From positions 310,001 through 374,000 of the forward strand of contig NZ_MOBK01000001.1 of NCBI RefSeq assembly GCF_003732265.1: a stretch of 64,000 nt of DNA, read 5' to 3'. This document shows positions 13,093 through 16,217 of this stretch, one piece after another. The position numbers were made by a program, and so were the translations under genes. A model generated the notes under the pieces. The model did no database searches. It was not told where the DNA came from and worked only from the letters and a program-made list of their open reading frames with translations. The stretch comes from Pseudomonas brassicacearum. GTDB lineage: Bacteria; Pseudomonadota; Gammaproteobacteria; Pseudomonadales; Pseudomonadaceae. How positions within the stretch are numbered: position 1 is the stretch's first letter; each line of letters begins with the position of its first letter.

Positions 13093-13395
13093 ATGAAATT
13101 TATCCACCAGCGCGAGCACCTCAACGAAGACGACATCGTCGTCATCCAGTGCTCCCAAATGTGCAACATCCGCTTGATGAACGACGCCAACTTCCGCAGC
13201 TTCAAGAATGGTGGTCGTCACACTTACCACGGCGGCGCGTTCGATACTTTCCCGGCCCGGATTACCGCGCCGAGCACCGGTTTCTGGAACATCACCATCG
13301 ACACGGTCAACCGCCGGCCGATCAGCGTGACCCGCAAGCCGACCCTGACTCACTCGATCAAGATCATCCGTCGCTCCAGCACGAAACTGAGCTGA
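13093..13395 (+). CDS. DUF1883-domain protein
   Basis: 100 aa, starting MKFIHQREHLNEDDIVVIQC. The compact beta-rich pattern and the NGGRHTYHGGAFDTFPARI segment match the DUF1883 family, an SH3-like fold often linked to TIR-domain proteins elsewhere. Good GGAGGCG ribosome site. It is followed 29 bases later by a second small gene in the same direction, so the two are probably co-transcribed. Confidence 0.7.
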   Translation: MKFIHQREHLNEDDIVVIQCSQMCNIRLMNDANFRSFKNGGRHTYHGGAFDTFPARITAPSTGFWNITIDTVNRRPISVTRKPTLTHSIKIIRRSSTKLS

Positions 13396-13424: not shown

Positions 13425-13601
13425 ATGACCGTGGCTCAAACGACCAAGTACGTCATCAAATACAAACTCAACGGTGAGCGCCGTTTCGAGTTTGCCCAGC
13501 TTGAAAACGGCACTGCCGAAGAAGCGAAGGCCGCGCTCGACGCCATTCATGGCCAGAGCGACGATGTCATCAGCGAGATCAGTGTCAGCAAAGCGCTGTA
13601 A
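13425..13601 (+). CDS. Small conserved protein of unknown function
   Basis: 58 aa from ATG 13425. The longer open frame upstream overlaps the DUF1883 gene and is not credible. TTKYVIKYKLNGERRFEFAQ is followed by an alpha-helical EEAKAALDAIHG stretch and ISEISVSKAL. Likely translated with the DUF1883 gene. No function recognised. Confidence 0.6.
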   Translation: MTVAQTTKYVIKYKLNGERRFEFAQLENGTAEEAKAALDAIHGQSDDVISEISVSKAL

Positions 13602-13646
13602 CAGTCCCCGGAGCGACCACAGGGATGTCTGCTCCCGAGTCTGAAG

Positions 13647-13694
13647 TTTGACCGCAAGCGCCGGAGTGTTCACCCCGCCACCGCTGCCTAGACT
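13647..13694 (+). promoter_or_regulatory. Candidate Ada-responsive promoter 1 (alkylation-repair operon)
   Basis: TTTGACCGCAAG-CG-CCGGAGTG at 13647-13668, followed 21 bases later by the -10-like TAGACT (13689-13694). The same element with the same offset lies upstream of ada (15076-15123). No good -35 hexamer is visible, as expected for an activator-dependent promoter. Confidence 0.6.
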
Positions 13695-13727
13695 GGCCAC
13701 CTCAACCTTGGGTTAAGGAGTCAGAAC

Positions 13728-14396
13728 ATGCTGGAGCAACAACTCGATCAGGATGGCTGCGCCATTATCAGATCGCTCCTGAGTAGCGAAGCCTGCGACA
13801 AGATCAGCGCGTTTTACGCGCAGCCCGGGCTTTTTCGTTCACAGGTGATCATGGCTCGCCACGGTTTTGGCCGAGGCGAGTACAAGTACTTCAAATACCC
13901 TCTGCCGGATCCCGTCGCACGCCTGCGCAGCGAGCTTTACCCTGCCCTCGTGCCGATTGCCAACCGCTGGCACGAATACATGGGTCTGCAGACGCGTTTT
14001 CCCGCCACGCACGAAGCCTTTTTGCAGCGCTGTCATGCCGCCGGTCAGGAACGTCCGACACCCTTGTTGCTGCAATACGGCCCGCAGGACTACAACTGCC
14101 TGCACCAGGACCTGTACGGCGAACACGTCTTCCCGCTACAAGTGGCGATTCTTCTGTCAGAACCCGACGAAGACTTCACCGGCGGTGAATTCGTGCTGAC
14201 CGAACAACGCCCGCGCATGCAGTCACGCCCTCTGGTCATGGACCTGAAGAAAGGCGATGCCTTGATCTTTGCCGTCAGCCAGCGCCCGGTCAAAGGTGTT
14301 CGCGGTTATTACCGAGTGAACATGCGCCACGGTGTGAGTCGCCTGCACAGCGGAAAACGGCATACCCTTGGAATCATCTTTCACGATGCGTTATGA
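13728..14396 (+). CDS. 2OG-Fe(II) oxygenase of the alkylation-repair cluster
   Basis: 222 aa. A double-stranded beta-helix dioxygenase: iron ligands His126-x-Asp128 (LHQDLYG) and His201, with the 2-oxoglutarate-binding Arg211 in the HGVSR...GKRHTLG segment. Gene order (this gene, alkB, ada) and the shared upstream element point to induction by DNA methylation damage. The substrate is unproven; it could repair nucleic acids or act on a protein. alkB starts 4 bases after its stop. Confidence 0.85.
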   Translation: MLEQQLDQDGCAIIRSLLSSEACDKISAFYAQPGLFRSQVIMARHGFGRGEYKYFKYPLPDPVARLRSELYPALVPIANRWHEYMGLQTRFPATHEAFLQRCHAAGQERPTPLLLQYGPQDYNCLHQDLYGEHVFPLQVAILLSEPDEDFTGGEFVLTEQRPRMQSRPLVMDLKKGDALIFAVSQRPVKGVRGYYRVNMRHGVSRLHSGKRHTLGIIFHDAL

Positions 14397-14399
14397 GCC

Positions 14400-15065
14400 A
14401 TGAGCCCCTTCACCCTGGATTTGTTTGCCGACACAGAACCCGAGCCGCCGCCCAAGCGCGAGCAGATCGGTGAACAAGCCTGCGTCTTGCGCGGCTTTGC
14501 CCTGCCCTGGCTGGACTCGTTGCTGACTGCGCTTGAGGAGGTTTTGGCGGTCGCGCCGTTTCGGCAGATGGTCACCCCCGGCGGCTTCACCATGTCCGTA
14601 GCCTTGAGCAGTTGCGGTGCCCTGGGTTGGACCACCGACCGCAGCGGCTACAAATACACGCGCAATGACCCGCAGACCGGGCAACCCTGGCCGAAGATGC
14701 CTGATGTGTTTTTCGAGCTGGCAAAAGCGGCGGCACGTGAAGCGGGATTTACGGATTTTGTACCTGATTCCTGCCTGATCAACCGCTATGTCCCCGGCGC
14801 GAAGATGTCATTGCACCAGGATAAAGACGAAGGTTCCTACGCAGCGCCGATCGTTTCGGTATCGCTGGGGTTACCAGCGACATTCCTGTTCGGCGGTTTT
14901 GAACGAAGTGATAAAAGCCAGCGCGTACCACTGCTGCACGGCGATATCGTGGTCTGGGGTGGCGTCGACCGCTTGCGCTATCACGGCGTATTGCCAATCA
15001 AGGACGGACATCATCCAAGGCTGGGCGAACAACGCATCAACTTCACGTTTCGTAAGGCCGGATGA
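14400..15065 (+). CDS. alkB: DNA oxidative demethylase AlkB
   Basis: 221 aa. All catalytic residues align with the E. coli enzyme at a constant offset: His139-x-Asp141 (HQDKDE), His195 (RYHGVLP) and the 2OG-binding arginines Arg212 and Arg218 (EQRINFTFRK). The substrate-binding GYKYTRNDP region is present. It removes 1-methyladenine and 3-methylcytosine by oxidation. Translated with the upstream oxygenase gene. Confidence 0.95.
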   Translation: MSPFTLDLFADTEPEPPPKREQIGEQACVLRGFALPWLDSLLTALEEVLAVAPFRQMVTPGGFTMSVALSSCGALGWTTDRSGYKYTRNDPQTGQPWPKMPDVFFELAKAAAREAGFTDFVPDSCLINRYVPGAKMSLHQDKDEGSYAAPIVSVSLGLPATFLFGGFERSDKSQRVPLLHGDIVVWGGVDRLRYHGVLPIKDGHHPRLGEQRINFTFRKAG

Positions 15066-15075
15066 AAGACTCGAA

Positions 15076-15123
15076 TTTGACCGCAAGACCCGGAGTGCCA
15101 CGCCCCTCCCGCCTGATTAATCT
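15076..15123 (+). promoter_or_regulatory. Candidate Ada-responsive promoter 2 (ada)
   Basis: TTTGACCGCAAG-AC-CCGGAGTG at 15076-15097 matches the element upstream of the 2OG oxygenase gene at 20 of 22 bases. TAATCT follows at 15118-15123, at the same spacing. Confidence 0.6.
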
Positions 15124-15152
15124 GAATGAAACGGGTCAATGGAACTACAGAC

Positions 15153-16217
15153 ATGACAACTCATTCGACTAAAACAGCTACCGAAATCGATCCTCGCTGG
15201 GCCGCCGTCGTTGCGCGCGATCCGGCCGCAGACGGGCAATTTGTCTACGCGGTAAAAACTACCGGCATCTATTGCCGCCCGAGCAGCCTGGCGCGCTTGC
15301 CGAATCCGCAGAACGTCGAGTTTTTCGACACGCCGGAGCAAGCCCAGGCGGCGGGATATCGTCCCAGCAAACGCGCGGCAAAAGACCAAAGTGATGTGGC
15401 CGCCCAGCACGCGGCCACCGTGGCCGCTGCCTGCCGGCACATCGAATCCGCCGAAAATCTGCCGCCGCTCAATGAACTGGCGGACGCCGCGGGTCTCAGC
15501 AGCTTCCACTTCCATCGAGTGTTCAAAGCCGTCACCGGGCTGACCCCCAAGGGTTACGCCACGGCCCATCGCTCGCGCAAGGTGCGTGATCGTCTGGCGG
15601 ATGGCGGCTCGGTCACCGACGCCTTGTACGACGCCGGTTTCAATTCCAACAGTCGTTTCTATGAAGCAGCGGATAATCTGCTCGGGATGAAGCCGGGTGA
15701 CTATCGCGCTGCCGGGCAAAACAACGACATCCGCTTTGCCGTCGGCCAATGCTCCCTCGGGGCCATTCTGGTGGCGCAAAGTGAACGCGGGGTTTGCGCG
15801 ATTCTACTGGGGGATGATCCGCATCAACTGGTCTGCGATCTGCAGGACAAGTTTCGGCGTGCCAACCTGATCGGTGCCGATCATGAGTTCGAGCAACTGA
15901 TCGCCCAGGTCGTAGGGTTTATCGAAGCGCCGGCCCTTGGCCTGGATTTGCCGCTGGACGTGCGCGGCACGGCGTTTCAGGAACGCGTCTGGCAAGCCTT
16001 GCGCGAGATTCCCGCCGGCCGCACCGCGAGCTATGCCGAGATCGCCCAACGCATCGGATCACCCAAGGCTGTGCGCGCCGTGGCCCAGGCGTGTGGAGCG
16101 AACAGTCTGGCGGTGGCGATCCCTTGCCACCGCGTGGTGCGTAGCGACGGCAACCTGTCGGGCTATCGCTGGGGGGTTGAGCGCAAGCGCCTGTTGCTGG
16201 AACGCGAGACGCGCTGA
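15153..16217 (+). CDS. ada: Ada: adaptive-response regulator / O6-methylguanine-DNA methyltransferase
   Basis: 354 aa from ATG 15153; an upstream ATG at 15126 lacks similarity. The N-terminal methylphosphotriester domain keeps the acceptor Cys41 (GIYCRPSS), but the other three zinc-ligand cysteines of E. coli Ada are replaced (Ser45, Ser72, Ala75). An AraC-type HTH follows (LNELADAAGLSSFHFHRVFK), then the C-terminal methyltransferase with AIPCHRVV (Cys325) and RAVAQACGAN. It repairs O6-methylguanine and probably activates both promoters of this cluster. Confidence 0.92.
   Translation: MTTHSTKTATEIDPRWAAVVARDPAADGQFVYAVKTTGIYCRPSSLARLPNPQNVEFFDTPEQAQAAGYRPSKRAAKDQSDVAAQHAATVAAACRHIESAENLPPLNELADAAGLSSFHFHRVFKAVTGLTPKGYATAHRSRKVRDRLADGGSVTDALYDAGFNSNSRFYEAADNLLGMKPGDYRAAGQNNDIRFAVGQCSLGAILVAQSERGVCAILLGDDPHQLVCDLQDKFRRANLIGADHEFEQLIAQVVGFIEAPALGLDLPLDVRGTAFQERVWQALREIPAGRTASYAEIAQRIGSPKAVRAVAQACGANSLAVAIPCHRVVRSDGNLSGYRWGVERKRLLLERETR

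Follow-up and report, generated by a model that had tools for sequence, protein, structure and literature searches.

A predicted three-box Ada operator upstream of an oxygenase-alkB gene pair and of ada in Pseudomonas brassicacearum

Sequence comparisons suggest that two copies of a 22-bp element in P. brassicacearum are very probably Ada-regulated promoters, each consisting of a predicted Ada operator with an A box, a B box and a third box, the X box, followed by a -10 hexamer. In the window (the whole stretch of 64,000 nucleotides that was analysed), copy 1 precedes a 2OG-Fe(II) oxygenase gene and alkB, and copy 2 precedes ada. Ada is a textbook chemosensor that detects alkylation damage. 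We suggest the following scheme: (i) each copy, as an Ada operator with its -10 hexamer, would be a complete alkylation-response promoter, copy 1 driving the oxygenase-alkB operon and copy 2 driving ada itself, (ii) methylated Ada would bind the A box by its N-terminal domain, the B box by its first helix-turn-helix (HTH1) and the X box by its second (HTH2), (iii) bound Ada would recruit RNA polymerase to a promoter lacking a good -35 element, and (iv) the oxygenase, alkB and ada would rise together after methylation damage. That oxygenase-alkB and ada constitute one regulon is what we infer from the sequence and by analogy, the published base being work in P. putida and Caulobacter.

Layout of the putative promoters and their relation to known Ada operators

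An earlier note on this DNA had described two 22-bp copies identical at 20 of 22 positions, and both were found exactly as placed (shared form TTTGACCGCAAG-N2-CCGGAGTG; Table 1). The distances from the ends of the copies to the start codons, 59 nt for copy 1 (start at 13728) and 55 nt for copy 2 (start at 15153), also agree with that description. A TAxxCT hexamer does follow both copies at a fixed distance; it had been placed 21 bases after each copy, but 20 bases intervene and the hexamer begins at the 21st. An alternative ATG start at 15126 lies 3 nt past the -10 hexamer of copy 2, near the expected transcription start; the start at 15153 fits ada better.

Table 1. Positions in the window of the two copies, their predicted boxes and the genes behind them
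Feature	Coordinates	Strand	Remarks
Copy 1 of the 22-bp element, TTTGACCGCAAGCGCCGGAGTG	13647..13668	+	sequence comparison, genome search
A box of copy 1 (AGT)	13645..13647	+	geometry of E. coli ada
B box of copy 1 (GCAA)	13654..13657	+	
X box of copy 1 (CGGAG)	13662..13666	+	X box named in PMC10957082
-10 hexamer of copy 1 (TAGACT)	13689..13694	+	20 nt after copy 1
2OG-Fe(II) oxygenase, Pfam Oxygenase-NA (PF09859)	13728..14396	+	first gene behind copy 1
alkB, DNA oxidative demethylase	14400..15065	+	NF011930; 3 nt behind oxygenase
Copy 2 of the 22-bp element, TTTGACCGCAAGACCCGGAGTG	15076..15097	+	sequence comparison, genome search
A box of copy 2 (AAT)	15074..15076	+	
B box of copy 2 (GCAA)	15083..15086	+	
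X box of copy 2 (CGGAG)	15091..15095	+	
-10 hexamer of copy 2 (TAATCT)	15118..15123	+	20 nt after copy 2
ada, 354 aa	15153..16217	+	behind copy 2; PF02805, PF12833, PF01035; NF011964 above cut-off

Copy 2 reads AAT-TTGACC-GCAA, which is the exact A box-N6-B box of the E. coli Ada operator, and copy 1 reads AGT-N6-GCAA with AGT in place of AAT. In E. coli MG1655 the ada promoter has AAT-TAAAGC-GCAA, CAGCCT at the same -10 distance, and GTTGG where the window has CGGAG. The E. coli operator (ada, alkA and aidB; AAT-N6-GCAA) has the A box, N6 and B box seen in the window, and both copies keep the -10 distance of E. coli ada; it differs in that CGG 4 nt after GCAA is absent at E. coli ada and, read by eye, likewise at aidB and alkA, and in that E. 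coli Ada carries Ser164 where HTH2 of the window's Ada carries Arg168.

In the portion of PMC10957082 used here, E. coli Ada (EcAda) is described as using the A and B boxes and Caulobacter Cada2 as using the B and X boxes, i.e. as two separate codes, and GCAA plus the CGG motif, together with Arg114 of the RLHD helix-turn-helix, are needed for activity of the Cada2 promoter, Arg114 also for promoter binding. In both copies in the window GCAA and CGG are separated by 4 nt, so that the B box and X box of the Cada2 operator are present. The likeness to Cada2 comprises GCAA followed by CGG and the HTH2 arginine (within RFYE here and RLHD in Cada2), whereas the site in the window has an A box and the window's Ada has the A-box domain (PF02805), which Cada2 lacks. 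The spacer, given as 3 bp in that portion of PMC10957082, is counted here as GCAA-N4-CGG (or GCAAG-N3-CGG).

The same arrangement is found at putida-type loci, in which alkA precedes ada and the alkA promoter reads GCAAG-N3-CGGCG-TT-N20-TAAGCT. According to the sections of PMC3788762 consulted, MMS and MNNG induce the P. putida alkA promoter in a manner that depends on ada and on the B box; the promoter withstands loss of the A box, although deletion of four further upstream bases abolishes induction, and it shows no response in E. coli. This promoter shares the A box, GCAAG, CGG, N20 and TAAGCT with the sites in the window and differs in that it drives alkA-ada, in that its X box is CGGCG, and in that alkB is constitutive in P. 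putida (PMC3788762, same sections).

The window's Ada and recognition of the predicted operator

The window's Ada has the domain set of EcAda, i.e. an A-box domain, an AraC-type helix-turn-helix and a methyltransferase domain (PF02805, PF12833 and PF01035). It keeps the acceptor cysteine C41 (C38 in E. coli) and the DNA-binding arginines R48 and R74; S45, S72 and A75 replace the zinc ligands C42, C69 and C72, leaving Cys38 as the sole representative of the four zinc cysteines of an EcAda-like protein (38, 42, 69 and 72). Because these three ligands are lacking, the E. coli activation mechanism should not be assumed for this protein. Among 269 distinct Ada sequence entries, in which a few genomes are entered twice, one of the two entries being cut, 168 have four zinc cysteines, two have three, 92 have one, five have none and two are unreadable. 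The acceptor C38 is kept in 92 of the 97 entries with one or no zinc cysteine and both arginines in 95 of the 97, and the zinc-cysteine state changes three times on a tree built from 133 Ada proteins. A literature search for zinc-less Ada returned nothing on point in the open-access literature.

Zinc-less Ada may conceivably be activated in the same way as Cada2, via the C-terminal methyltransferase cysteine, with the A-box domain serving DNA binding only; this is a complement to the proposed operator rather than a different binder, and we regard it as possible but somewhat doubtful. The joint loss of C42, C69 and C72 evident from the counts above speaks for it, as do the retention of PCHR in all 49 zinc-less entries long enough to check and the presence of the X box. 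The frequent retention of the acceptor Cys38, on the contrary, suggests that this residue still reacts.

The X box is probably met by HTH2 of Ada, a reading that rests on the Cada2 genetics and on the position of the box more than on co-variation. Co-variation was examined in promoters chosen blind to the X box at a score of at least 8/10, which retained 179 of 224 rows, duplicates included. CGG is present in 99 of the 106 rows in which HTH2 carries arginine, in one of the eight rows without it (Ser in E. coli, His, Gln or Pro) and in 63 of the 65 rows in which HTH2 lies outside the fetched DNA. The exceptions are seven of the 106 rows in which the arginine occurs with CAG, TGG, TGA, GGG or CCG, and a single row in which His occurs with CGG; later rows at the same score gave Arg with CGG ten times, Arg with CAG once and His with TGG once. 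A plain Fisher test gives p 6e-7 but ignores relatedness. On the tree of 133 proteins the HTH2 arginine changes three times and the X box nine times, giving only two to three independent Arg/X-box pairs, which run in the expected direction and are not significant (sign test, p 0.5).

The more frequent changes of the X box on this tree speak for an alternative in which CGGAGTG serves RNA polymerase as a -35-like element and is not contacted by Ada, which would read the A and B boxes only, as in E. coli, where ada lacks CGG. A -35 hexamer with a 17-bp spacer would start at element position 20 and would therefore share the terminal GTG with the element; conservation of the end of the element may for this reason partly serve the sigma factor. 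CGG itself, however, lies upstream of that hexamer, it is missing from seven of the eight promoters whose Ada lacks the HTH2 arginine, and the Caulobacter findings on GCAA, CGG and Arg114 described in the consulted portion of PMC10957082 also argue against this explanation, which we consider unlikely. Structures are consistent with the preferred reading, in which HTH2 would contact the X box, in the following limited sense. Alignment of the solved N-Ada fragments (1wpk, 1zgw and 1u8b) with the window's Ada extends no further than residues 143-149; the fragments end before HTH2, short of R168, and could therefore not show an X-box contact. The AlphaFold model of Ada matches the N-Ada/DNA structures best and has a mean pLDDT of 71, with blocks of residues 11-70 at 86-91 and values below 50 in HTH2 at residues 166-175 and over the C-terminal 40 residues. 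The X-box contact is beyond the reach of the model.

A different regulator, e.g. a Cada2-like protein or the second Ada-like protein of the same genome, might occupy the site. This paralog (G000:C10:64327-65334, locus L378) is full length and has all four zinc cysteines. Its HTH1, however, has Leu and Lys at the places of F114 and H115 (R118 is kept) and its HTH2 has Gly for Arg; a three-box site was not found in its 4-kb locus, in which the best match was 13/19. Moreover, the window's own ada is the gene immediately behind the site, and EcAda and Cada2 both regulate themselves according to the portion of PMC10957082 used here. Binding by another regulator is thus very improbable, and the window's own Ada is the preferred reader. 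As a separate observation, the Ada match in four Pseudomonas genomes (L374-L377) begins at profile residue 76-80 and, therefore, the A-box domain seems to be absent, as in Cada2.

Distribution of the element in Pseudomonas and beyond

Ada is present in 372 of 398 Pseudomonas genomes (NF011964 profile, E up to 1e-40); 20 named genomes of the 26 without it served as the Ada-negative sample. The 22-mer at up to three mismatches occurs in 276 of the 398 genomes, i.e. in at least 267 of the 372 Ada-positive genomes versus three of the 20 Ada-negative ones. A search at this stringency is noisy, the backwards-read control, tallied in the Ada-negative genomes only, having matches in 15 of the 20, and the three loose matches are at the level of this control. 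The strict element TTNNANNGCAAGNNNCGGAGTK was matched 71 times, spread over 47 of the 61 Ada-positive genomes searched, which is not a frequency because many of the 61 were picked for having the 22-mer; it was found in none of 19 Ada-negative Pseudomonas genomes, and its backwards control has one match across all 80 genomes. A Fisher p value for element versus ada presence is not relied on, the genomes having been partly picked for the element.

The PF09859 oxygenase was found in none of the 20 Ada-negative genomes and alkB is kept in 17 of them. At all 17 of these alkB loci the element is absent before alkB, the best matches within 300 nt (10-12 of 20 positions) being at the level of shuffled sequence. 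In the window, a DUF1883 gene (13093-13395) and a 58-codon gene (13425-13601) lie ahead of the oxygenase gene. The 58-codon gene is found 3-113 nt before alkB in 14 of the 17 Ada-negative Pseudomonas loci; these 14 loci also contain DUF1883, and no oxygenase gene was found in them. In total, the A and B boxes at the E. coli spacing, the fixed -10 hexamer, the tracking of the element with ada across Pseudomonas and its position before ada, the oxygenase, alkA and an ogt-type gene in different species support the proposal of the earlier note that the element is an Ada-binding site.

As the Ada site of the genus, the element holds for many Ada-bearing Pseudomonas but not for a second Ada class, the upstream regions of which have TTGAAA-N8-CGGATTG-N20-GACAAT and variants. 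Thirty genomes with Ada and without the 22-mer were chosen and gave 30 Ada loci, 26 of which encode a protein with SHR in HTH1 and SGTRALYE or similar in HTH2. Their upstream sequence is this variant operator or close to it, with GCAA replaced; the CGG form is present at 16 of the 26 loci and at five of five earlier loci (L338, L339, L342, L344 and L346), and most of the other ten have CGG altered. The second class with its variant operator was observed in Pseudomonas and in a sister genus (the five earlier loci, L348-L373). A coupling of the B box to HTH1 residue 114 was considered and is not claimed: 24 SHR rows have the variant, but eight keep GCAA and nine have neither.

Using GCAA-N4-CGG alone within 154 nt before ada as the anchor, a site was found at 176 of 247 ada loci (170 distinct sites) and not at the remaining 71. 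Of the 170 distinct sites, 114 have TANNNT at offset +27 relative to CGG, with at most four at any other offset from 15 to 39, and 144 have AAT, AGT or GAT at -9 relative to GCAA, with at most 18 at other offsets from -6 to -19. Since the offsets are fixed in most sites, the A box, B box, X box and -10 hexamer make up one rigid arrangement in many systems with a full-length Ada. The genera with such sites before ada include Pseudomonas, Burkholderia, Ralstonia, Lysobacter, Rhodanobacter, Mesorhizobium and Brucella. The element is, then, not genus-specific as had been supposed; it appears to be the operator of many proteobacterial Ada proteins with CGGAG added as a third box.

The 22-mer at up to three mismatches occurs at these two places only in the 6.47-Mb genome, with one match for the backwards-read pattern, and two matches were obtained in none of 100 shuffles of the window. 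The flanks of the copies are unalike, as the earlier note had stated (ungapped comparison: 18 of 60 positions upstream, 8 of 20 in the spacer and 4 of 30 past the hexamer), so that a recent duplication of a longer stretch is rejected. Although there are only two copies in the genome, a chance repeat or a functionless duplicated promoter is rejected as wholly implausible by a chance expectation of 0.01 matches per window at up to three mismatches, by the unalike flanks and by the recurrence of the element upstream of ada outside Pseudomonas.

Other genes behind the site and implications for Ada systems

Loci picked for a listed match to the 22-mer, in which one protein of each kind was scanned, have the site before a free-standing PF09859 gene (L121), before P. 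putida alkA-type genes for a 3-methyladenine glycosylase (L123 and L129) and before O6-methylguanine methyltransferase genes of the ogt type (L113, L114, L116 and L117). At L122, picked likewise, the match falls within an opposite-strand reading frame of 484 codons, and no such gene was found there. In three Pseudomonas genomes a three-box-like site lies before a gene for an EamA-family transporter (L112, L124 and L131). Judged by its upstream sequence, this transporter may be a previously unrecognised member of the alkylation response.

PF09859 is found in 33 of 299 genomes of the phylum and is present in the Caulobacter control genome. GCAA-N4-CGG lies within 250 nt upstream in nine of 30 PF09859 loci (0.77 expected by shuffling), and in 19 of the 30 a match of the alkB or ada/ogt type lies within the same 3.5 kb, both counts including the window itself and a second Pseudomonas genome (G083). 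A literature search found no paper joining Ada with COG3826, which we take to be the family label of the PF09859 oxygenase. In Caulobacter, the gene most induced by MMS is ccna_00745, a predicted 2OG dioxygenase, according to the portion of PMC10957082 used here. The data would place the PF09859 oxygenase in the alkylation response.

For many Proteobacteria the data run against two separate promoter codes and suggest one unified operator, of which E. coli (A and B boxes) and Caulobacter Cada2 (B and X boxes) would each use a part. We tentatively propose, while regarding it as rather less than an even chance, that the usual Ada operator consists of the A, B and X boxes read by three modules of one protein, that the E. 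coli and Caulobacter systems are reductions of this arrangement, which would account for the puzzles of P. putida alkA, and that a widespread zinc-less class of Ada that keeps Cys38, to which the window's Ada belongs, senses methylation by a new route. If true, this would provide a testable cause for the dispensable A box of the P. putida alkA promoter and for its missing response in E. coli, as described in the sections of PMC3788762 consulted.
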